From: Paraurantiacibacter namhicola
GTDB taxonomy: Bacteria; Pseudomonadota; Alphaproteobacteria; Sphingomonadales; Sphingomonadaceae
Direction of reading: 5' to 3'
Length of the DNA: 64,000 nucleotides
Assembly: GCF_001687545.1 (NCBI RefSeq)
Contig: NZ_CP016545.1
Coordinates: forward strand, 1,783,001 to 1,847,000
Part shown: positions 22,932 through 39,695 of the stretch, one piece after another
Numbering within the stretch: the first letter of the stretch is position 1
Layout of the letters: each line of letters begins with the position of its first letter
Made by a program: the position numbers and the translations under genes
The notes under the pieces: generated by a model
Told to the model about the DNA's origin: nothing
The model's input: only the letters and a program-made list of their open reading frames with translations
Databases searched by the model: none

Positions 22932-23986
22932 GCCGCACCTCCGTATCGGGTAAGCATCAGCCATCCGGAAATCAGGACGACGAAGATCAGGCTCATTGGC
23001 AGGAAGACCTTCCAGCCAAGCCGCATCAGCTGGTCGTAGCGATAGCGCGGAACGGTCGCCATCACCCAGCTGAACATGAAGAAGAAGAAGAAGGTCTTCA
23101 GCAGGAACCACACGATGCCCGGGATGTCGAACCAGGGGATCAAGTCGATATTCAGCGGGGGCAGCCAGCCACCGAAGAACAGCAGTGTATTGAGGCTGCA
23201 CATCAGCAGGATGTTGGCATATTCGCCCAGCCAGAACAGCGCGAAGCTCATGGAGCTGTATTCGGTCTGGTAACCGGCGACGAGCTCGGATTCCGCTTCG
23301 GTCAGGTCGAAGGGCACGCGCTGCGTTTCCGCCAGCGAGCTGATGAAGAACACCACCCACATCGGGAATAGCAGCAGGTTGAACCAGTACCCGTTCACGA
23401 TGCCGAAGCCGTGGCCGAGCTGCGAATTGACGATATCGGTCAGGTTGAACGTGCCGGCATAGAGCACCACGCACACCAGGATGAAGCCGATGGAGACCTC
23501 GTAGGAGATCATCTGCGCCGCGGCGCGCATGGCGGAGAAGAACGGGTATTTGGAGTTACTCGCCCACCCGCTCATCACGATGCCGTAAACCGACAGGCTG
23601 CTTACAGCGAGAATATAGAGCAGGCCGACATTGATGTCCGCCAGCAGCACGCCCTCGTCGAAGGGGATCACCGCCCAGGCGGCCAGCGCCACGGTGAAGG
23701 TGACGATGGGCGCGAGCAGGAAAATGCCCTTGTTCGCAGCCGAAGGAATGATGGTTTCCTGCAGGAAGACCTTCAGGCCGTCCGCGAAGCTCTGCAGCAG
23801 GCCGAAGGGCCCCACCACATTCGGCCCGCGACGCAGGTTGATGGCAGCCCAGACCTTGCGGTCCACATAGATGATCATGGCCACGGCCAGCATCAACGGC
23901 AGCGCAATCAGCAGGATGCCGGCGATCGTGGCGACGAACCACGCCCATTCATAGGACATGCCGAGGGATTGGAAGAATTCGGTCAT
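22928..23986 (-). CDS. nuoH: NADH-quinone oxidoreductase subunit H
   Basis: 352 aa, eight-helix subunit that forms much of the quinone chamber at the junction of the arms. It shows [20 protein letters not shown], the acidic loop [19 protein letters not shown] and the C-terminal [12 protein letters not shown]. The start shares one base with the stop of the 57-aa gene before it. Confidence 0.96.
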
Positions 23987-24159
23987 CAGTCGCCGCCTCC
24001 GCCGCAGCCGCCTTCTCCGTAACTGCCACCAGCAGCACTCGATCCTCCCGCGTCAGATCCACCACCGAGCCGGTCGAGGAAAAAGGGAGCGAACTTCTGC
24101 AACGTCAGCAAAACGACCAACAGGGTCGCCGCGCTTCCGAGTAACACCAAGAAGTTCAT
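23986..24159 (-). CDS. Tiny single-helix, glycine-rich membrane protein between nuoG and nuoH
   Basis: 57 aa, shorter than usual gene-calling cut-offs. The ATG at 24159 overlaps the nuoG stop by 4 nt, and the TGA at 23986-23988 shares one base with the nuoH ATG, so it is exactly fitted between them. A hydrophobic helix (about 3-23, [20 protein letters not shown]) is followed by FFLDRLGGG and a tail of about 25 residues made almost only of Gly, Ser, Ala and one Cys ([13 protein letters not shown]). I know of no matching family. Coupling implies dosage near that of the membrane arm; a complex I accessory or assembly role is inference. Confidence 0.75.
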
Positions 24160-26144
24160 TCCGCTGCCTCCCGCACGTCCTCGCCGTGGACCAGTTCGGC
24201 CGAGCAGCGCTGCATGGTCGGGCTGGAGCGGGCGATGGGATTGGTCAGGTAGAAATCGCTTATTGGATAGGCGTCGATGAAGCCTTCCGCCTTTGCCTTG
24301 GCGTCCGGTTTGGGCAGCGCACCGTAATCGGCCAGGCCTTCCTTGCCCAGCGCGGGCACAGCCTTGGTCATAGCGGCGCGCAATTCGGCGAAGCTGTCGA
24401 AGCCGACACTCACGCCCAGCGCATCGGCGAGTGCCCGCAGGATCGTCCAGTCCTCGCGCGCGTCACCGGGGGCGAACACGGCCTTGTCGGCGAACTGCAC
24501 GCGCCCTTCGGTGCTGACATAGGTGCCAGCCTTTTCGGTATAGGCGGCGGCAGGCAGGATGATGTCCGCCGCATGCGCGCCCTTGTCGCCGTGATGGCCG
24601 ATATAGACCTTCAGGCTGCCTTCGAATGCGGCGTAATCCACCTCGTCCGCGCCCAGTGCCAGCAGCACTTTCGGCTTGGCGTCAGCCACATCCGCAATGC
24701 CGCCCTTCTGCGCAAAGCCCAGCATCAGAGCGCCCATGCGCGCGGCGGAGAAATGCAGCACGTTGAAGGCAGCGTCCCAGCCTGCGGCCAGCGCCATCGC
24801 CTTGCCATGCGCGCCCTTCAGGCACGCGCCGCCGACGATCACCGCCGGGCGCTCAGCCTTGTCAAAAACGTCGGTCACATCGCTGGAAAGCGCGTTCAGC
24901 ACGCCGAGATCGTTGCCCAGGAACTCGGCCGGATAGGTCGTGTCCCACTTGGGCCCGACCACGAACACCTTCGCGCCGCGCTTTACGGCCTTGCGGATGC
25001 GGACATTGACCAGCGGCGCTTCGCGGCGGATGTGGCTGCCCACGATCAGGATCGCGTCGGCTTCCTCGATCCCGGCAAAGGTGGAGTTGAAGTTCACCGC
25101 GGCCAGGTTGGACGTGTCGTAAGCCATGCCGGTCTGGCGGCTTTCGAGCAGGTCGGACCCGCTGGCCTTCAGCAGCGCCTTGGCCGCGAACATCGTCTCG
25201 CAATCGACCATGTCGCCCGCGATGGCAGCAATGGACTTGCCAGGCTTGGCAGCAGCAATCTTCTTGAACGCTTCGTCCCAGCTCGCCTGCTGGAGCTTGC
25301 CCTTCTTGCGGATCCAGACCTTGTCGAGGCGGCGCTGTGTCAGGCCTTCGCACTGGTAGCGCGCCTTGTCCGAAATCCACTCCTCGTTCACGTCGTCATT
25401 GATGCGCGGCAATACCCGCATGACTTCGCGGCCCCGGCTGTCGACGCGGATATTCGAACCCATCGCGTCCGAGACATCGATGCTCAGCGTCTTCTTGAGC
25501 TCCCACGGACGCGCTTCATAAGCGTAGGGGCGGCTTGTCAGCGCGCCGACCGGGCACAGGTCGATGACATTCGCGGACAGCTCATGCTCCGCCGCCTGTT
25601 CCAGATACGTCGTGATCTGCATGTTCTCGCCGCGGTAAAGCGCGCCGATCTCGTCAACGCCGGCCACTTCTTCGGAGAAGCGCACGCAGCGGGTGCAATG
25701 GATGCAGCGGGTCATGATCGTCTTGATCAGCGGGCCCATGTATTTCTCGGTCACCGCGCGCTTGTTCTCGTGATAGCGCGTGGCCCCGCGGCCATACATG
25801 ACCGACTGGTCCTGCAGGTCGCATTCGCCGCCTTGGTCGCAGATGGGGCAATCGAGCGGGTGGTTGATCAGCAGGAATTCCATCACGCCTTCGCGCGCGG
25901 TTTTCACCAGCTCGCTATCGGTGCGGATTTCCTGGCCTTCGGTGGCCGGCAGGGCGCAGCTCGCCTGCGGCTTGGGCGGCCCAGGCTTCACTTCCACCAG
26001 GCACATGCGGCAATTGCCCGCGATGCTCAGGCGTTCGTGATAGCAGAAGCGCGGGATTTCCTTGCCTGCCAGCTCGCAAGCCTGGAGCACCGTGGCTCCA
26101 TCCGGAACCTCGATTTCCTGGCCGTCGACGGTGACTTTGGGCAT
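24156..26144 (-). CDS. nuoG: NADH-quinone oxidoreductase subunit G
   Basis: 662 aa, of the shorter alphaproteobacterial/mitochondrial 75-kDa type, not the about 900-aa enterobacterial one. The N-terminal 2Fe-2S ferredoxin domain has CYHERLSIAGNCRMC, then the HxxxCxxCxxxxxC site of cluster N5 (HPLDCPICDQGGECDLQ), then the 4Fe-4S motif TRCIHCTRC. The rest is the molybdopterin-oxidoreductase-like domain without the cofactor. It is preceded by 129 bp of non-coding DNA after the insertion of four paralogues, so it may need its own promoter or readthrough. Confidence 0.95.
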   Translation of the reverse strand: MPKVTVDGQEIEVPDGATVLQACELAGKEIPRFCYHERLSIAGNCRMCLVEVKPGPPKPQASCALPATEGQEIRTDSELVKTAREGVMEFLLINHPLDCPICDQGGECDLQDQSVMYGRGATRYHENKRAVTEKYMGPLIKTIMTRCIHCTRCVRFSEEVAGVDEIGALYRGENMQITTYLEQAAEHELSANVIDLCPVGALTSRPYAYEARPWELKKTLSIDVSDAMGSNIRVDSRGREVMRVLPRINDDVNEEWISDKARYQCEGLTQRRLDKVWIRKKGKLQQASWDEAFKKIAAAKPGKSIAAIAGDMVDCETMFAAKALLKASGSDLLESRQTGMAYDTSNLAAVNFNSTFAGIEEADAILIVGSHIRREAPLVNVRIRKAVKRGAKVFVVGPKWDTTYPAEFLGNDLGVLNALSSDVTDVFDKAERPAVIVGGACLKGAHGKAMALAAGWDAAFNVLHFSAARMGALMLGFAQKGGIADVADAKPKVLLALGADEVDYAAFEGSLKVYIGHHGDKGAHAADIILPAAAYTEKAGTYVSTEGRVQFADKAVFAPGDAREDWTILRALADALGVSVGFDSFAELRAAMTKAVPALGKEGLADYGALPKPDAKAKAEGFIDAYPISDFYLTNPIARSSPTMQRCSAELVHGEDVREAAE

Positions 26145-26273: not shown

Positions 26274-26693
26274 CTAGGAGGCAGGGCTGCGCGCCAGCGT
26301 CTCCTTGGCTGCACTGCGCAGCAGGCTGAGACTGGTGACCATCGCCTGGCTGTGACACCCCGGAGCGTGCTGCATCATCCGGCGTGCGGCCCAGCGCTCT
26401 GCCCTGCTGCCGATCGGCTGCGCGAGGAACTTCGTGATGCGATCCGGGCTGTTGCGTTGCACACAATTCGTGAACTCGAGCGCCGCGAGATAGGCGGAAT
26501 CGGGCTCCGATCCATGCTCCACTTCAAAAGTGGTCGCGCGCTGGGAATGCGGATAGAAATTGCCGGTGGGCGGAGACGCGGCGCCGGTTGGCTTGTCGTA
26601 CGCGCCATATTCCATATTCTGGGCCGCAACATGCGGTGCGAATCCGATGGAAAGTGCCGCCGCTGCGATCGCTATCATTCCCTTACGCATCAC
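26274..26693 (-). CDS. Exported cysteine-pair protein, single-repeat paralogue (D)
   Basis: 139 aa. A Sec signal peptide (MRKGMIAIAAAALSIGFAPH, cleavage near VAAQ) is followed by one copy of a repeat also found in the three genes upstream: a Cys in TNCVQRNSPDR, a GS.AER segment, a Cys in HAPGCHSQ about 35 residues on, and LLRSAAKETL at the end. The other paralogues have two copies; here the protein stops right after the first, so it is either a natural half-size member or a truncated one. Nearest to paralogue C (shared CVQR, QPIGS, AERRAA-type stretches). Function unknown, probably periplasmic. Confidence 0.75.
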   Translation of the reverse strand: MMRKGMIAIAAAALSIGFAPHVAAQNMEYGAYDKPTGAASPPTGNFYPHSQRATTFEVEHGSEPDSAYLAALEFTNCVQRNSPDRITKFLAQPIGSRAERWAARRMMQHAPGCHSQAMVTSLSLLRSAAKETLARSPAS

Positions 26694-26739
26694 CAGGTCT
26701 CCTTACATATCCCGCCGCTGATTTGATTGCCGCTCCCGC

Positions 26740-27513
26740 TCAGACATCCCGCGCGAATTCGCCGCTGCGGGTCCAGTGATACAGAGCCTCGGCAAGATAC
26801 GAGCGGTAAGTCACGGCCGCGAGGTCGTTCTTCGCCTCCATCGTGCCGCACATGCCGGTGACACTCGCGATCTGCTCACGCAGCGCCTTTTCCTCGTCAC
26901 TGCCGTGGTCTGCCAGGATGAGCTTTCGTGCGAGACCGGGCGCAACCATGACCTGGCACTGGGTGTAGCGGGCCAAGGCGCGCACATCCGGGTCGTTCCT
27001 GTCCGAAATAGCCGGATTGTAAGCCATGAAACGCTCGATCCGCTCGCTATCCAGCGTCCCGGCCCGGTCGATATCCGGCGAAGCGTAATTCTGGAGGATC
27101 GTTTCCGAAGCCGCACCGCGCAGGAAGCGGACGCTCACCACGAAGCTGCGGCTGGAACAGCCAGGCGCACTGCGCAGGAGCGCGCTTGCGGCGCGGCGTT
27201 CGGCGGAGCTGCCGATCGGCTGGCGCAGGAAACGCTCGAGCCGCTTTGGCGTCACGCGTTGCACGCAGTCCGTGAAGCCGAGCGATTTCGTATATTGTTC
27301 CCGATAGCCCGAGCCGCCGGTCAGCATGCGCGAGGCGTCCAGCGAATTGCGCTGTTCGAAATCCTGGAACGTGGTCGGCGGGGCCGGCAGTGGCGGCGGC
27401 ATCGGGGCCGGCGTGGGCGTTGGCGTGCCGCCACTGCTCTGCGCCAGGGCAGGCCCAGCCATGCCCATCAGCACGGCCGCAATCGCTGCGAAGCTGGCGC
27501 GCCCTGCCCTCAT
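26740..27513 (-). CDS. Exported cysteine-pair protein, two-repeat paralogue (C)
   Basis: 257 aa. Signal peptide MRAGRASFAAIAAVLMGMAG ending in PALAQ, then a Pro-rich stretch (PTPTPAPMPPPLPAPP). Repeat 1 has TDCVQRVTPKRLERFL, SAPGCSSR and FLRGAASE; repeat 2 has TQCQVMVAPGLARKLI, HGSDEEKAL, TGMCGTME and YLAEALYHW. The paired cysteines in each repeat suggest a disulfide in the periplasm. The start overlaps the stop of paralogue B by 4 nt, so the two are translationally coupled. I do not recognise a named family. Confidence 0.8.
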   Translation of the reverse strand: MRAGRASFAAIAAVLMGMAGPALAQSSGGTPTPTPAPMPPPLPAPPTTFQDFEQRNSLDASRMLTGGSGYREQYTKSLGFTDCVQRVTPKRLERFLRQPIGSSAERRAASALLRSAPGCSSRSFVVSVRFLRGAASETILQNYASPDIDRAGTLDSERIERFMAYNPAISDRNDPDVRALARYTQCQVMVAPGLARKLILADHGSDEEKALREQIASVTGMCGTMEAKNDLAAVTYRSYLAEALYHWTRSGEFARDV

Positions 27514-28220
27514 CCCGCGTCGCCTGCGAAATCGATCCAGTAATACAGCGCCAGCGCGGTGTAGGCCCGCTGGAAGTAAGGCGTCAGCTCCGTCACATCG
27601 GACAGCAGCACGTCGCAGGACGGCGTGATTTCCTTCAGCGTGGCGAGCGCGGCGCTCTCCTCATCCGATCCCGGTTCCGTGCTCAGCACGGCGCGTGCGG
27701 GAAACGGTGCGATCGCCACCCGGCATTGCCCTGCCAGCTGGTGCATCGTGAAGGGATCCTTCTTGTCCACCTTGGGCACGATCACAGCCTTCATGAAGCC
27801 GTTGACCTGCTCCACCGACCCACCCTGCGGGATTGTGGTGGTATGTTCAGGGTCCAGCACGCTCTGTTCGGCGATACCTGCGCGCATGAGGTCGAAATCG
27901 ACGATGGTCCGCACCGGCGTGCATACATCGACGCGGGCAACATATTCGCCGAAGCGCAGCGTCTTCTCAGCCTTGCCTTCCACCATCTGGTCCAGCGCCA
28001 GGCGCGCGCGATCCGGATTGCGGCCATAAGCGCATTTGCCGAAAGTACGGGCGAATTCGGCCTGTTCCTTCTGCTTCACGGCGTTGACGGACAGCTCCGC
28101 GCGGCTGTTGCGCTCCTGCGACTGGCTCATGTCGAAGCCGGTCGCGACATCCTGCGCACCAGCGGGACTGGCGACAAAAGAGAGAGCGACGGCCGTGGCG
28201 GCAGCAGAGACAATACGCAT
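27510..28220 (-). CDS. Exported cysteine-pair protein, two-repeat paralogue (B)
   Basis: 236 aa from the ATG at 28220 (AAGGTG upstream), which gives the signal peptide MRIVSAAATAVALSFVASPA, cleaved after GAQ. A longer frame upstream gives no signal peptide and is rejected. Repeat 1: GKCAYGRNPDRARLAL ... VDVCTPVR ... MRAGIAEQSVL. Repeat 2: GQCRVAIAPFPARAVL, GSDEESAAL, TPSCDVLLS, AYTALALYYW. Same two-cysteine spacing as its neighbours. Coupled to paralogue C by a 4-nt overlap; a 205-bp gap separates it from paralogue A. Confidence 0.8.
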   Translation of the reverse strand: MRIVSAAATAVALSFVASPAGAQDVATGFDMSQSQERNSRAELSVNAVKQKEQAEFARTFGKCAYGRNPDRARLALDQMVEGKAEKTLRFGEYVARVDVCTPVRTIVDFDLMRAGIAEQSVLDPEHTTTIPQGGSVEQVNGFMKAVIVPKVDKKDPFTMHQLAGQCRVAIAPFPARAVLSTEPGSDEESAALATLKEITPSCDVLLSDVTELTPYFQRAYTALALYYWIDFAGDAG

Positions 28221-28425
28221 TAGGGACACCTTGTTTATTGGACCACGTCTTAGGAAAGCGACATGAAGCCCGGATGAAGGACAGGCGGATTGCCGCCAGT
28301 ATCCTGCCACGCTCGGTCCAAGACGCACCGCGTGGGAGCGCCAATCCGCCAACGGCATTGGCAGTCCGACGAACGGCATCCGTGGTGGGGTCGGCCCTAA
28401 GGCCCACCAGCCTTTTCACCGCGAG

Positions 28426-29205
28426 CTATGAGGCGTCCTTGGCGGAAGAAAACATCTGCAAATAGTAGAGCGCGCGTGCGGTGAAGCCGCGCTCGAACCA
28501 GTGCGTCAGACGTTCACCGCGGCCGAAGAACCTGTCGCACAGCGGTGTGTCCGCATAGAATTCTTCCAAGGTATCCCGCTCCTGCGCGCTTCCGACCTCA
28601 TGATCCAGCACATCTCGGGCAAGATATGGCGAAAGCGCAACTCGGCACTGATATCCCAGTTGCAGGGTCGTTAGGATATCGCCCGCCGAAGCATTGCGAG
28701 CCTCGACACTGCCAAGGAATGCGAGCAGCTCCGCTTCCGACCCGACAGGCCTGAAGCTGGAGGCCGGATACATCTTCGTGACAAAAATCTCGGCCATGGA
28801 GCCACGGACGAAATTCGTATCCACCAGGCCGCTGACAGGGGCGCAGGTGTCGAACCGCTCGTAATAGCGCGTCTCGAGAGTGCTCGTCTCTTTGACCCCG
28901 GCGAAGAAGGAGTCGAGCATCTGTTTTGCGCGGGACTCGCTCAGCCTGACCGCGCAGCCTGCGAATCTTGACGCCTTCCAGTACCCCTTTCTCTGCGCAC
29001 GATCGCCGCGATAGATAAGCGGTATCTGCTGCTCCACCGATTGCTGGGCAAAATCGAAGTCCACGAGATCGTTGGCGCCTGGGGCAAAGGTGACCGTGGG
29101 GCGTGGTCCGGTGTTGCCGCGAGATGGCTGTGCGGCAGCCGGCGTCCATTGGAAGGCGAGCAGCAAAAGCGCAGCGGGCCAGAACCTGAGAAAAATCTTC
29201 AGCAC
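28426..29205 (-). CDS. Exported cysteine-pair protein, two-repeat paralogue (A)
   Basis: 259 aa from a GTG at 29205 with AAGGGGA just upstream; this start gives a good signal peptide (MLKIFLRFWPAALLLLAFQW ... AAAQ), whereas the longer frame from 29322 buries it. Repeat 1: AGCAVRLSESRAKQML, FDTCAPVSG, RGSMAEIFV. Repeat 2: YQCRVALSPYLARDVL, GSAQERDTL, TPLCDRFFG, FTARALYYL. It is the first of four tandem paralogues that sit between nuoF and nuoG. Family not recognised; no catalytic motif seen. Confidence 0.8.
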   Translation of the reverse strand: MLKIFLRFWPAALLLLAFQWTPAAAQPSRGNTGPRPTVTFAPGANDLVDFDFAQQSVEQQIPLIYRGDRAQRKGYWKASRFAGCAVRLSESRAKQMLDSFFAGVKETSTLETRYYERFDTCAPVSGLVDTNFVRGSMAEIFVTKMYPASSFRPVGSEAELLAFLGSVEARNASAGDILTTLQLGYQCRVALSPYLARDVLDHEVGSAQERDTLEEFYADTPLCDRFFGRGERLTHWFERGFTARALYYLQMFSSAKDAS

Positions 29206-29340: not shown

Positions 29341-30633
29341 CTACTCAGCCGCTTCCCGGATTGCGCTTTCGCGTTCGGCGATGCGGCGCTCCATTTCGGG
29401 GCGGAAGTGCTTGATCAGGCCCTGGATCGGCCAAGCGGCGGCATCGCCCAGCGCGCAGATCGTGTGGCCTTCCACCTGCTTGGTCACCTGCTGCAGCATG
29501 TCGATTTCCTCGACTGCCGCCTCGCCGGTGCGCAGGCGTTCCATCACGCGCCACATCCAGCCCGTGCCTTCGCGGCAGGGCGTGCACTGGCCGCAGCTTT
29601 CGTGCTTGTAAAAATAGCTGATGCGGGAAATGGCGCGCACGATATCGGTGGACTTGTCCATCACGATGACCGCTGCGGTGCCGAGGCCGCTGCCGACTTC
29701 CTTCAGGCCGTCGAAATCCATCGGCGCGTCCATGATCTGCTCGGCCGGGACCAGCGGGACGGAGGATCCGCCCGGGATCACGGCGAGAAGGTTATCCCAC
29801 CCGCCGGTGATGCCGCCGCAATGCTTCTCGATCAGCTCGCGGAAGGGGATGCTCATCGCCTCCTCCACCACGCAGGGCTTCTCGACATGGCCGGAGATCT
29901 GGAAGAGCTTGGTGCCCTTGTTGTTCTCGCGCCCGAAGCTGGCGAACCACGCGCCGCCGCGCCGCATGATCGTGGGGACGACCGCGATGCTTTCGACATT
30001 GTTGACCGTGGTGGGGCAGCCATAGAGGCCCGCGCCTGCCGGGAACGGCGGCTTCAGGCGCGGCTGGCCCTTCTTGCCTTCAAGGCTCTCGATCATCGCG
30101 GTTTCCTCACCGCAGATGTAAGCGCCCGCGCCGCGGTGCAGGAAGACATCGAAATCATAGCCGGACTTGGCGGCGTTCTTGCCGATCAGGCCCGCCTCGT
30201 AAGCCTCGTCGATCGCGGCCTGCATGGTCTCGGCCTCGCGGATGTATTCGCCGCGGATGTAGATATAGGCCGCGCGCGCACGCATGGCGAAACCGGCGAT
30301 CAGCGCGCCTTCGATCAGCTTGTGCGGATCGTGGCGGATAATCTCGCGGTCCTTGCAGGAACCGGGCTCGGATTCATCGGCATTGATGACCAGGAAGCTG
30401 GGCCGTCCGTCCTTCGATTCCTTGGGCATGAAGGACCATTTCATGCCGGTGGGGAAGCCTGCCCCGCCTCGCCCGCGCAGGCCGGAGGCTTTCACCTCGT
30501 CGATGATGGCATCCTGGCCACGCGCGATGATGGCCTTGGTATCGTCCCAGTCGCCGCGCTTCTGCGCAGCGTCCAGGTTCCACGGCTGGAAGCCATAAAG
30601 GTTGGTGAAGATACGGTCTTTATCGGCGAGCAT
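29341..30633 (-). CDS. nuoF: NADH-quinone oxidoreductase subunit F
   Basis: 430 aa flavoprotein that oxidises [21 protein letters not shown] and [19 protein letters not shown] form the FMN/NADH site, and the 4Fe-4S cluster N3 ligands are in [11 protein letters not shown] plus a later Cys ([13 protein letters not shown]). The start shares one base with the stop of the 45-aa gene. After its stop there is a 135-bp gap and then the four-gene insertion, not nuoG as usual. Confidence 0.96.
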
Positions 30634-30770
30634 CAGAAATTACCCTGCGACAGAAAGTAGAGCGCGGCGAGGATCACCACGACGATAACGCCGAACTTGG
30701 CCACACCCATCAGCAGTTTCCATGCGATGAAGATGACAACAAGCGCGATCAGGATCGTGGCTATGCTCAT
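30633..30770 (-). CDS. Tiny two-helix membrane protein (45 aa) before nuoF
   Basis: 45 aa, too short for most gene finders. Its ATG at 30770 overlaps the stop of the 56-aa gene by 4 nt, and its TGA shares a base with the nuoF ATG. It is almost wholly hydrophobic: a helix in [20 protein letters not shown], a short basic turn (MGVAK), a second helix ([15 protein letters not shown]) and the tail SQGNF. The exact fit at both ends is strong evidence that it is translated. No known family. It could be a small accessory subunit or assembly factor of complex I; that is inference. Confidence 0.7.
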
Positions 30771-30937
30771 GCTGCGTCGCCACCGTCCTTGTTACTTTTG
30801 AACAGGCTGAATGCGCCAAACAGGAAGGCCAGCAGGAACCAGACGATCCAGCCACCGCCTTGCAGCAGCTTCACGACACCGACGCCGAGAAAAATGGCGC
30901 CAATCAGCGGAAATCCGCGCTTCTTCAAGCCGTCCAT
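30767..30937 (-). CDS. Tiny two-helix membrane protein (56 aa) after nuoE
   Basis: 56 aa. The ATG at 30937 shares one base with the nuoE stop, and the stop overlaps the 45-aa gene by 4 nt. It opens MDGLKKRGFPLIGAIFLGVG, with a helix about 9-25, then QGGG, a Trp/Phe-rich second helix (WIVWFLLAFLFGAFSLF) and a charged tail ([10 protein letters not shown]). It looks like a small hairpin membrane protein. No family recognised. Together with the 45-aa gene it forms a micro-protein pair in the NADH-module part of the operon, which is odd because NuoE and NuoF are soluble subunits. Confidence 0.72.
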   Translation of the reverse strand: MDGLKKRGFPLIGAIFLGVGVVKLLQGGGWIVWFLLAFLFGAFSLFKSNKDGGDAA

Positions 30938-31605
30938 CACCATTCACTCCGGTAATCGTGGTTCTCGGTGACCATGTCCTTCAGCGTGGTCGGCCCGCCG
31001 CTCGGCTCGCTGGTGTGGCGGCCGGGTTCCTGCGTGCCTTCCTTCGGCGTCTCGCCCGCGGCCAGCGCGTCCAGCACGGCATCAAGGCGATCCACCGTCA
31101 GGTCTTCGTAATTGCCGTCATTGATCTGGACCATCGGCGCGGTGGCGCAATTGCCCATGCATTCCACCTCGGTCAGCGTCCAAAGGCCATCGTCGGTGGT
31201 GTGGCCCTTCTTCATCCCGCGAGCATAGCAGGCACCCAGGATATCGTCGGACCCGCGCAGCATGCACGGTGTGGTGCCGCAGACCTGCACATGGAATTTG
31301 CCGACCGGCGCGAGGTTGTACATCGTGTAGAAGGTCGCGACTTCCAGCACGCGGATCACCGGCATGCCGAGATAATCGGCGATATATTCCATCACCGGCA
31401 GCGGCAGCCATCCCTGCGTATCGGTCTCCGCCCCGACCTGCCGCTGGGCAAGGTCGAGCAGCGGCATGACGGCCGATTTCTGCCGCCCTTCCGGATAGCG
31501 CGCGATGGCAGTGTCGGCCTTCGCCTTCGTCTCCTCGGAGAACGTCCAGTCGCCCCAGCGCTTGCGCAGTTCGGGCGTATCGGGTGCGGGTGCGCGGTCA
31601 GCCAT
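30937..31605 (-). CDS. nuoE: NADH-quinone oxidoreductase subunit E
   Basis: 222 aa thioredoxin-like 2Fe-2S subunit (cluster N1a). The four ligands are in CGTTPCMLRGS and CMGNCATAP. The tail (about 185-222, with EPGRHTSEPSGGPT) is longer than in E. coli, as in mitochondrial 24-kDa homologues. It starts one base into the stop of the exported 157-aa protein's gene (TAATG). Confidence 0.95.
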   Translation of the reverse strand: MADRAPAPDTPELRKRWGDWTFSEETKAKADTAIARYPEGRQKSAVMPLLDLAQRQVGAETDTQGWLPLPVMEYIADYLGMPVIRVLEVATFYTMYNLAPVGKFHVQVCGTTPCMLRGSDDILGACYARGMKKGHTTDDGLWTLTEVECMGNCATAPMVQINDGNYEDLTVDRLDAVLDALAAGETPKEGTQEPGRHTSEPSGGPTTLKDMVTENHDYRSEW

Positions 31606-32078
31606 TAATTTTCGCTTTTAATCCAAATTGTTCTGTCCGGCGCGAAGTCACGCACCTGACGCGGCTTATCGCTTTCGAAATCCACGATACTGAAACCGTC
31701 TTCGACATCGCCACATGCCCACTCGACGCGAACTGCGTCCATGCCCTTGTATGCATACAGATCACGGACCGCACATTCGCTTCTCCACGTAACCCTATGC
31801 GTCGATATTGCGGCGCACATACCGTCAGAACAATCGTTAGCTACAACGAGAAAAGGCAATTCTTCGCCAGCGAGCATTTTGCCGACAATCTCCGCACGCG
31901 CTTCGTCGACTGGTGATGCCCCTACATCTCCAAAAGTATATTCGGTTTCCCAGTATCCGCGATCATTCAATACCGAATTGCCGGCGACCAACCCTTCGCC
32001 ATGCGCGTATTCGATCACATCGCCGGGTAGATAGGGCGCAGTAGCGACCACCGCTGCTGCAAGCAGCAATTTAATCAC
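31605..32078 (-). CDS. Exported cysteine-containing protein between nuoD and nuoE
   Basis: 157 aa. A short hydrophobic N-terminus ([20 protein letters not shown]) looks like a signal peptide, with no clear cleavage site. The rest is hydrophilic with four cysteines after the leader ([16 protein letters not shown]), which would suit two disulfides in the periplasm. It overlaps nuoD by 4 nt and nuoE by 1 nt, so it is made with the peripheral arm. Its base composition is visibly less GC-rich than the nuo genes beside it, which hints at later acquisition. No family recognised. Confidence 0.75.
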
Positions 32079-33292
32079 CGGTCACACTCCCCGAACACGA
32101 CGTCGATTGCGCCGAGGATGGCGGTGGCGTCGGGCAGCATGTGGCCCCTCGTCATCATTTCCATCGCCTGGAGGTGACTGAAGGCGGTGGGGCGGATCTT
32201 GCAGCGATAGGGTTTGTTGCTGCCGTCGCTGACCAGGAACACGCCGAATTCGCCCTTGGGGCTTTCGGTCGCGACATACACTTCGCCCGCCGGCACGTGG
32301 AAGCCTTCGGTGTAGAGCTTGAAGTGGTGGATCAGCGCTTCCATCGACTGCTTCATCTCCGCGCGCTTGGGCGGGGAGACCTTGCGGTCGGAGCTGGCGA
32401 TGGGCCCTTCCGGGATTTCCGCCAGGCATTGCTTGATGATCTTGGCGCTCTGGTAGACTTCCTGAACGCGGACCATGAAGCGGTCGTAGCAGTCCGAATT
32501 CGTGCCCACCGGGATGTCGAAGTCCATCCGGTCATACACGTCGTAAGGCTGCGATTTGCGCAGGTCCCACGGGATGCCGGCGGCGCGGATCATCGGGCCG
32601 CTAAAGCCCCAGGCCAGCGCGTCTTCCTTGCTGACATGGGCGATATCGACATTGCGCTGCTTGAAGATGCGGTTGTCGATGACGAGGCTCATCGCGTCGC
32701 CGAACAGTTCGGGCAGGCGCGTGTCGACCCAGTCGCCGATGTCCGTCAGCAGCTTCAGCGGCACATCCTGGTGGACGCCGCCCGGGCGCAGGTAAGCGTG
32801 GTGCATGCGCGCGCCGCTCATCCGCTCGAAGAAATTCATGCAGTCTTCGCGCAGCTCGAACACCCAGAGGTTGGGCGTCATCGCGCCCACGTCCATCACA
32901 TGTGCGCCGATGTTGAGCATGTGGTTGCAGATGCGCGTAAGCTCCGCAAACAGCACGCGAAGGTACTGCGCGCGCTCCGGAACCTCGACGTTCAGCAGCT
33001 TCTCGATGGCGAGGATGTAGCTGTATTCCTGCGCCAGCGGGCTGCAGTAATCGAGCCGGTCGAAATAGGGCAGCGCCTGCAGGTATGTCTTGTGCTCGAT
33101 CAGCTTCTCGGTGCCGCGGTGCAGCAGGCCGATATGCGGATCGACACGCTCCACGATCTCGCCGTCCAGTTCCATCACCATGCGCAATACGCCGTGCGCT
33201 GCGGGATGCTGCGGACCGAAATTGATCGTGTAGCTGGAAATAACCTCGTCGCCGGTGGTCGGCGCGTCTTCCAGGACCATTGAATGACTCAT
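32075..33292 (-). CDS. nuoD: NADH-quinone oxidoreductase subunit D
   Basis: 405 aa, the 49-kDa quinone-site subunit related to NiFe-hydrogenase large subunits. Recognisable stretches are [41 protein letters not shown] and the C-terminal [15 protein letters not shown]. The ATG at 33292 ([10 protein letters not shown]) overlaps the stop of the lipoprotein gene by 4 nt, so it is preferred over one five codons upstream. C and D are separate genes, not the fused NuoCD of E. coli. Confidence 0.96.
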
Positions 33293-33879
33293 ACGCCGCA
33301 AGTCCATGTGCCGGAGCGATAAACGCGTTCGGGGCCAAGGCCGCTGCGGACGGAAAGGTCGGCCGGCCAGCGCACGCTTTCGGCGCCATAAGCCTCGCCC
33401 TCGCCCGCGCCGCGGCGCACTTCCACGCTGATCGTGCCGTCCGTCAGGCTGGGCCCTTCGGTCACGTAGTCAGCGCCAGTGGTTTCCTCGCCCTGCAGCA
33501 GCATGTCTTCCGCATCGACCTGGACGACGCCCTTGGCGCGCGAAATCTCGTTATCGCGGGCACCGGCCACCAGCAGCGTAACATCGCCCAGTGCGAAGGT
33601 GCACGCGCCCATGGTGGGTCCGAGGTCTACGGCCTGCGTATCGGCAATCGGCTGCAGCATGGGCGGAGCGGGCGTTTCCGCACCGCCGGCCACTGCCACA
33701 ACGTCGCCTTCCAGATTGACCAGCGAGGGATCGTCCAGCGCAGTTACGCTTTCGCGCTCCTGATCGGTCGTCAGCGTTTCCACGCCGTCTTCGTCGCCCG
33801 GGTTGGCATCGCCGGAACCGCAGGCGGCCAGCGCGAGTGAAAGCGGCAACGCCGCCAGCAGGATGGAACTACGGATCAT
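33289..33879 (-). CDS. Lipoprotein between nuoC and nuoD
   Basis: 196 aa from the ATG at 33879. A type II signal peptide ([20 protein letters not shown]) puts a lipidated Cys at residue 20, followed by an acidic linker ([18 protein letters not shown]). The mature part has two more cysteines (MGACTFALG and the C-terminal TWTCGV), possibly a disulfide. It overlaps both nuoC and nuoD by 4 nt. Function unknown; that a lipoprotein is translationally coupled to cytoplasmic-arm subunits is unusual. Confidence 0.8.
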
Positions 33880-34727
33880 GCCTTGTCCTCCTCGATTTCG
33901 GTCGCACCGGGATTGTCGCGGCCCTTGCCCTTGCGCGGGGCCTTGCCCTTGCGGTCCTCGGTAGGTTCGGGCGCGTCGGGCTCCTCGACGCCGGTGTCTT
34001 CCTCGGCCGGCGAACCGGCAGAGACCTTCTCCGCAGCCTTGGCGTCGGTTTTCGGGCCTGCGCCGGTCTGCTTCGGGCTCTCGGTCGTCTTGGGCTCGTC
34101 CACCGGCGGGGTGCTGGCCTTCTCGTCGCCCGGCAGCACGTAATCCGCGCCTTCCCATGGGGACATGAAGTCGAAAGTGCGCAGGTCCTGCGCCAGCTTC
34201 ACCGGCTCGTACACCACGCGCTTCTCCTCCTCGGAGTAACGCAGTTCGTGATAGCCGGTGAGCGGGAAGTCCTTGCGGAAAGGATGCCCTTCGAAGCCAT
34301 AATCTGTCAGGATGCGGCGCAGGTCCGTATTCCCGTCGAACAGCACACCGTACATGTCGAACACTTCACGCTCCAGCCAGCCGGCATTGGGCCAGAGGGT
34401 CGTGACGGTGGGCACGGGCGTCGCCTCGTCCGTGGAGCACTTCAGCATCACACGGTGGTTCTTCGTGACGGAGAGCAGCATGTAAACCACTTCGAACCGC
34501 TCGGGGCGGCCCGGATAGTCGACACCGGCGATTTCCATCAGCTGCTGGTATTCATGCTCGTCCCGCAGCGTGCGCAGGGCATCCTCGATGCCATCGCGCT
34601 GCACGGTGAACAGCAGCTCGCCGTGCTCTTCGTGCGCAGACACCAGCGCATCGCCGATGGCGGCGGACAGCGTATCGGCCACACCATCGTTGGAGGCATA
34701 TTTCGGGGCGGAGTGCAGGACTGTCAT
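33876..34727 (-). CDS. nuoC: NADH-quinone oxidoreductase subunit C, with long disordered tail
   Basis: 283 aa. Residues 1-190 are the 30-kDa subunit fold, with the signature [20 protein letters not shown] followed by [18 protein letters not shown]. Residues 195-283 form a low-complexity extension of Pro, Glu, Lys, Thr and Ala ([30 protein letters not shown]) that most NuoC proteins lack. It starts in a 4-nt overlap with nuoB. Confidence 0.95.
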
Positions 34728-39110: not shown

Positions 39111-39578
39111 TTAGGGCTCGCCCGCGCCCCACAGGCGGTCCTGCTCGATCCAGCCTTCGCGGCCAGAAACGTCGAACAGGCACCACCCGTCCTCGCAATT
39201 GCCCAGCTTGCCGACCACGCCGGGCTCCGCATTCCACATCAGTTTTGCGGTGTCCGCCGGTTCCGCCCGCATGGCGGCCAGCCCTTCCCCGGTCACGATG
39301 GCGGTGCGCTGCGGATTGAGCAGGCGTGCCACGATCCAGCCCTGCGTGCCGTCCGGATCCTGCACCAGACGCCAGCCCTGCATCACCCGCACCACTTTCA
39401 CCGGCAGGCCCTGCCGCTTGTACACCCAGTCGATGGGATAATCCGCGCTCGGCCCCACGCGCATATTCACTTCGTCCGCCCGCAGGCTGGCCCAATAAGG
39501 CACTTCGCGGTCCTGCGCAGCGGCGGGAGCGGTCAGGAGGATGGCAGCGAGGAGCGAGAATAGCAGGCGGGATAGCAT
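39111..39578 (-). CDS. Exported SH3-like domain protein
   Basis: 155 aa from the ATG at 39578: signal peptide MLSRLLFSLLAAILLTAPAA ending AQ, then a bacterial SH3-like fold with the landmark VNMRVGPSADYPIDWVYKRQ and a second, related stretch (EGWIEQDRLWG). Such proteins usually bind peptidoglycan in the periplasm. Two cysteines (NCEDGWC) are close together. It stands alone, convergent with the lipoprotein gene and divergent from amtB. Confidence 0.8.
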   Translation of the reverse strand: MLSRLLFSLLAAILLTAPAAAQDREVPYWASLRADEVNMRVGPSADYPIDWVYKRQGLPVKVVRVMQGWRLVQDPDGTQGWIVARLLNPQRTAIVTGEGLAAMRAEPADTAKLMWNAEPGVVGKLGNCEDGWCLFDVSGREGWIEQDRLWGAGEP

Positions 39579-39695
39579 AGACGCACTGCCTATCGCGCGC
39601 ACCGGAGTCGCAGCAAGCGGCAAAGCGTTGTTAAACCTTGTGCGCTATGCGGGCCTGGCGCGCGTGGGCGCGCTGGTTTCAGGAGCCGTACGACG

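Follow-up and report, generated by a model that had tools for sequence, protein, structure and literature searches.

The four tandem genes A–D, located between nuoF and nuoG in the complex I operon of Paraurantiacibacter namhicola, are best explained as periplasmic cargo that occupies a permissive slot with exchangeable contents in the Sphingomonadaceae nuo operon, and not as an obligate part of complex I; we assign this reading a probability of roughly 0.45. It is supported by the occupancy of the slot (28 of 70 genera and 41 of 52 family copies), its permissiveness and the fast turnover of its contents, and by the flat identity of about 20% between genera, raised dN/dS, mixed deep clades and lack of detected co-variation with complex I subunits. 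It is weakened by the finding that one family, not random cargo, fills the slot in approximately 40% of genera, by the overlap or spacing within 10 bp between the last copy and nuoG at 25 of 34 loci, and by the apparently ancestral nature of the nuo site. Complex I operons are usually treated as conserved housekeeping blocks. Here, a junction between two catalytic subunit genes of such an operon constitutes a slot that is hypervariable throughout a bacterial family and, if the encoded proteins do not act on complex I, a core operon would be used to express envelope proteins that change rapidly.

An earlier note on the window (the whole stretch of 64,000 nucleotides analysed here) had described A–D as exported paralogues sharing a repeat of about 70 residues, with a single copy in D and two in each of the others, and a second cysteine 35–40 residues after the first. 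All four open reading frames are present (Table 1), and their products start with a Sec/SPase-I-type signal peptide with an AxA-type cleavage site, called from sequence and hydropathy without a trained predictor. Cleavage is predicted between TPAAA and QP in A, PAGA and QD in B, PALA and QS in C, and HVAA and QN in D; in C, the signal peptide is followed by a Pro/Thr-rich linker. The repeat is real and its copy numbers were reproduced by a domain profile, but its length is about 75 residues. The profile, built from 102 domains of which none came from the window, gave 67.6 (A), 75.6 (B), 89.1 (C) and 37.8 bits (D), compared with top scores of 6.1–9.7 bits for 500 shuffles per protein. Within the family, the first domain matches the second with an HHalign probability of 98.7% (E 2e-16), and the two are homologous. 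A chance repeat was therefore rejected. In each of the seven window domains, the second cysteine follows the first by 36 or 37 residues, and A–D contain no cysteine beyond one pair per domain. The alignment of 64 family members contains two invariant Cys columns and two others with at least 90% conservation; the approximate domain signature is FAxCVxxxPxxAxxLLxTxxGSxxExxAxxxLxxxxxxC ... RxxLAEALY.

Table 1. Genes of the nuoF–nuoG slot in the window, their domains and the bordering nuo genes.
Feature	Coordinates	Strand	Description
nuoF	29341..30633	-	upstream border of slot
Gene A	28426..29205	-	exported two-domain protein, 259 aa, GTG start
Gene A domain 1	28777..29001	-	residues 69-143, Cys84/Cys121 (domain profile)
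Gene A domain 2	28444..28665	-	residues 181-254, Cys187/Cys223 (domain profile)
Gene B	27510..28220	-	exported two-domain protein, 236 aa, 4 bp overlap with C
Gene B domain 1	27861..28073	-	residues 50-120, Cys63/Cys100 (domain profile)
Gene B domain 2	27528..27746	-	residues 159-231, Cys166/Cys202 (domain profile)
Gene C	26740..27513	-	exported two-domain protein, 257 aa
Gene C domain 1	27082..27300	-	residues 72-144, Cys83/Cys119 (domain profile, AlphaFold)
Gene C domain 2	26764..27000	-	residues 172-250, Cys186/Cys222 (domain profile, single-domain model)
Gene D	26274..26693	-	exported single-domain protein, 139 aa
Gene D domain	26289..26504	-	residues 64-135, Cys77/Cys113 (domain profile)
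nuoG	24156..26144	-	downstream border of slot

Gene A is most closely related to the copy that comes first in the corresponding slot of genome G100 (locus L037; phmmer E 1.2e-37), and gene B to slot copies at loci L036 and L037. Gene D, which more probably starts at the ATG at 26690, shares 42% identity with residues 2–147 of C and, judging from this alignment, is most likely a shortened duplicate that covers the first half of C. No further family copies were found in the genome from which the window was taken.

The AlphaFold2 model of C, for which 64 family sequences were used as input, is all-helical with two domains (mean pLDDT 85.7, pTM 0.80). Domain 2 of C alone was modelled with 109 domain sequences as four helices (pLDDT 88.3, pTM 0.78). 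The cysteines are placed where helix 1 ends and immediately past helix 3, which makes one disulfide per domain likely in this model. Foldseek searches of PDB and BFVD with the whole C model or one domain yielded no matches at E ≤ 0.001, and the top VIA-align Z scores were 3.1 for the whole model and 5.5 for the single domain. The middling helical likeness to a type I-A Cascade subunit (Z 5.5) and to Psb27 (Z 3.5) was taken to reflect common helical arrangements. No Pfam or NCBIfam model reached its curated cut-off for A–D, and no family of either database recurred among the other 60 members, which gave scattered weak matches (top E 0.0019 for Pfam, and 3.6e-5 for NCBIfam in two members). PADLOC profiles revealed no defence protein (top E 0.0074, in one of 64 members), and no PDB sequence matched the family with a meaningful score. 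A plasmid or viral origin was rejected, as there was no match in IMG/VR or PLSDB. These results, together with the paralogy, signal peptides and Cys pairs, support the earlier suggestion of a duplicated, periplasmic, possibly disulfide-bonded and unrecognised family, which we describe as exported Cys-paired tandem-domain proteins without a name or recognised relatives.

Of 70 genera searched with a profile, all from the GTDB family to which the window belongs, 33 contained members of the A–D family, with 52 copies in total. In 28 genera copies lie at the nuoF–nuoG site, with one to four per genome; they include G038, in which nuoF was not found and two copies were placed via nuoG alone. The slot is occupied, for example, in Aurantiacibacter rhizosphaerae, Novosphingobium marinum, Sphingobium sp. 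SYK-6 with a single copy, Sphingobium ummariense, Sphingomonas deserti and a Blastomonas MAG. A single copy is located directly past nuoG in G069, and the remaining 10 copies are sited elsewhere, including that of G012, in the assembly of which neither nuoF nor nuoG was found. Some carrier genomes have copies solely away from nuo. No member was detected at E 1e-5 in 285 genomes of other Alphaproteobacteria, and nearly all genera without the family still have complex I. The copies thus align well above chance and relatives hold homologues at the same place between nuoF and nuoG, so that a strain-specific insertion was rejected. An SH3-like protein of the window (39111–39623) had matched the profile through drift into the signal peptide and was taken out of the family. 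We found no literature on sphingomonad nuo operons with such open reading frames.

That the family belongs to the operon structure across carriers is shown by its consistent location and by its stop/start overlaps with nuoG: at 25 of 34 carrier loci the stop codon of the last copy overlaps the nuoG start or ends within 10 bp of it, and in several loci the first copy overlaps the nuoF stop by 4 bp. The spacing in the window is looser than at typical carrier loci (135 bp for nuoF–A, 205 bp for A–B, 46 bp for C–D and 129 bp for D–nuoG), and its gaps contain no RNA element in Rfam and no visible sigma-70-like promoter site. The earlier claim that gaps above 100 bp occur nowhere else in the operon is correct if small open reading frames at the nuoC–D, D–E, E–F and G–H junctions are counted as genes, and incorrect otherwise. 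The gap between nuoF and nuoG is smaller than 150 bp in 25 of 66 linked genera. Without the family, the slot is either closed (2–50 bp) or filled by unrelated open reading frames, which by eye encode, for example, small membrane proteins and aspartyl-protease-like or DUF2158-like proteins. The slot is therefore permissive.

Three loci have a retropepsin-like open reading frame in the slot, recognised by eye from a VDSGA motif (L063, 511–987; L085, 602–1009; L123, 5339–6001); in one of these three Sphingomonadales loci it lies beside a family member. In G048, the nuoF–nuoG gap measures 3.9 kb and holds two family members and, at L094 724–2946, non-family genes, among which an apparent polysaccharide pyruvyl transferase.

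Stop/start coupling is commoner for genes with cooperating products. The overlaps with nuoF and nuoG accordingly favour a tentative alternative that we consider nearly as likely as cargo of an exchangeable slot, namely that A–D are lineage-specific, dispensable periplasmic accessory or assembly factors, which would dock on the membrane arm of complex I from the periplasmic side and aid its assembly, stability or supercomplex formation. This is also favoured by the location in the complex I operon in 28–29 of 33 carrier genera, when the copy just past nuoG is included, and by the exported, helical and Cys-paired nature of the family. To our knowledge, no periplasmic accessory factors of bacterial complex I have been known so far; if the A–D family acts on complex I, its members would be the first. 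Against this alternative, roughly half of the genera in the sample lack the family, and almost all of these do have complex I; its copy number varies from 0 to 4, and some genomes carry it only away from nuo. Nor was co-variation of its presence with complex I detected: when carriage was compared with sites of NuoF, G, H, I, J, K, L and M, using labels simulated on the NuoG tree as the null, none of 1768 columns passed correction (best BH q 0.44), at low power for effects of few sites. A signal at the NuoM C-terminus was probably an artefact of loci cut off at their ends.

On the same face of mammalian complex I, four helix-turn-helix subunits with disulfides are found, which speaks for accessory factors; these CX9C (CHCH) subunits of the mitochondrial complex, NDUFA8, NDUFS5, NDUFB7 and NDUFB10, face the intermembrane space (PMC8762328). 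The A–D family resembles them in consisting of small helical, probably disulfide-bonded proteins on the periplasm-equivalent side and in its connection to complex I, which for A–D is by operon only. It differs in its Cys spacing of 36–37 instead of the twin CX9C motif, in its four-helix domain instead of a helix-turn-helix, in its bacterial Sec signal peptide and lack of a sequence match, and in being dispensable and fast evolving. The parallel is therefore analogous, not homologous. That sphingomonads possess a periplasmic, disulfide-pinned complex I accessory set of their own, encoded in line with nuoF and nuoG, expendable and fast-turning, which would have converged with the CX9C subunits, is in our judgement unlikely. 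Known supernumerary subunits of alphaproteobacterial complex I comprise homologues of NDUFS4, NDUFS6 and NDUFA12 and the PIMT subunit of Paracoccus (PMC11522691), a set distinct from the A–D family (PMC11522691, PMC8115037). Both are extra complex I-connected proteins in Alphaproteobacteria, but mitochondrial homologues exist for three of the Paracoccus proteins, whereas none is recognised for the A–D family, which moreover is exported and limited to Sphingomonadaceae in our sample. An extra gene also occurs at the same nuoF–nuoG junction in Rhizobiales (L172 and L173, 5072–5776); in its product, unlike those of A–D, neither a signal peptide nor a Cys pair is evident, and the protein is helix-hairpin-helix-like by eye.

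The rate at which the family evolves likewise argues against accessory factors, since its identity between genera is about 20%, compared with about 90% for NuoF. Where NuoG identity is below 90%, the best-pair identity of the family stays flat at about 20%, with a Spearman correlation to NuoG identity of 0.015 (528 pairs). Within genera, its dN/dS is 0.08–0.29 for correctly framed pairs and that of nuoF/nuoG in the same genomes is 0.02–0.10, so that the family value is approximately 2–7 times as high; first-copy rows pairing L046 with others were in the wrong frame and were left out. These pairwise values indicate that the family genes are under purifying selection, yet diverging far faster than nuoF/nuoG. 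Presence and absence require 19 changes on the 70-row NuoG tree, near the random expectation (shuffled mean 23.7); starred branches force at least 13 of them. Copies from the same genome frequently fall in different deep clades of the family tree, for example in G006, and locus L035 retains nothing but a signal-less fragment of a C-like gene. The sampled non-nuo copies form one clade (100/99). Because they are few and belong to this one clade, the nuo site looks ancestral for the family on the tree. Either repeated loss from an ancient multi-copy cluster or slot exchange by recombination in the conserved flanks would account for the overall pattern. Members of the non-nuo clade (L041, L043, L044, L049 and L050) share an IVVTG/IVVxG motif shortly past the signal peptide, which resembles an N-terminal motif of TonB-dependent receptors, and L050 has four copies in tandem.

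Fast divergence, tandem copies, patchy presence and truncated or remnant copies (D and L035) could also reflect an arms race, in which the proteins would provide periplasmic immunity or receptor shielding against bacteriocins, contact-delivered toxins or phages, and tandem diversification and rapid turnover would be its outcome. We consider such conflict proteins improbable, given that no effector gene lies beside the family genes, that neither PADLOC nor the Pfam immunity families gave a match, and that the pairwise tests point to purifying and not diversifying selection. The truncation of D, the fragment at L035 and the fast turnover of presence might even be taken as signs of selfish or decaying passengers without a current function. 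This is made very improbable by dN/dS values clearly below 1, intact reading frames, the presence of a signal peptide in almost every member and nearly invariant cysteines across 64 members.

The earlier note had left it undecided whether the genes have a link to complex I or merely reside in its operon. They are built into the operon, and the evidence leans somewhat towards the second option because of the patchy presence, the fast divergence, the unrelated slot genes and the lack of detected co-variation with eight subunits. As cargo of an exchangeable slot, the genes would be transcribed with the housekeeping nuo genes, to which they would be translationally coupled in most carriers, and the nuo transcript would provide a steady supply of expression in respiring cells. 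The products would leave by Sec, lose their signal peptide and fold into four-helix domains of about 75 residues, each pinned by one disulfide from the end of helix 1 to the loop past helix 3. In the periplasm they may act as small binding or protecting proteins with a quickly changing partner, of an envelope or conflict type. Homologous recombination in the conserved nuoF and nuoG flanks could swap the contents of the slot between strains.

Additional open reading frames are found at other nuo junctions. The nuoD–nuoE gap of Sphingomonadales has a median of 328 bp and often holds a SnoaL-like protein (by eye). In the window, this junction encodes an exported-looking, Cys-containing protein of 157 aa without a Pfam match (31605–32078, reverse strand), in place of the conserved SnoaL/NTF2-like protein of approximately 115 aa in many other Sphingomonadales. 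A lipoprotein-like open reading frame with a LAAC lipobox and no Pfam match, present in no other fetched locus, lies between nuoC and nuoD (33289–33880, reverse strand). The nuoG–nuoH junction contains a 57-aa open reading frame that encodes a hydrophobic helix at the N-terminus and a tail rich in Gly (23986–24159, reverse strand). Mini membrane proteins are often present between nuoE and nuoF in Sphingomonadales loci; in the window, two coupled ones of 58 and 45 aa are encoded there (30633–30943, reverse strand), both of which are conserved in many of these loci.
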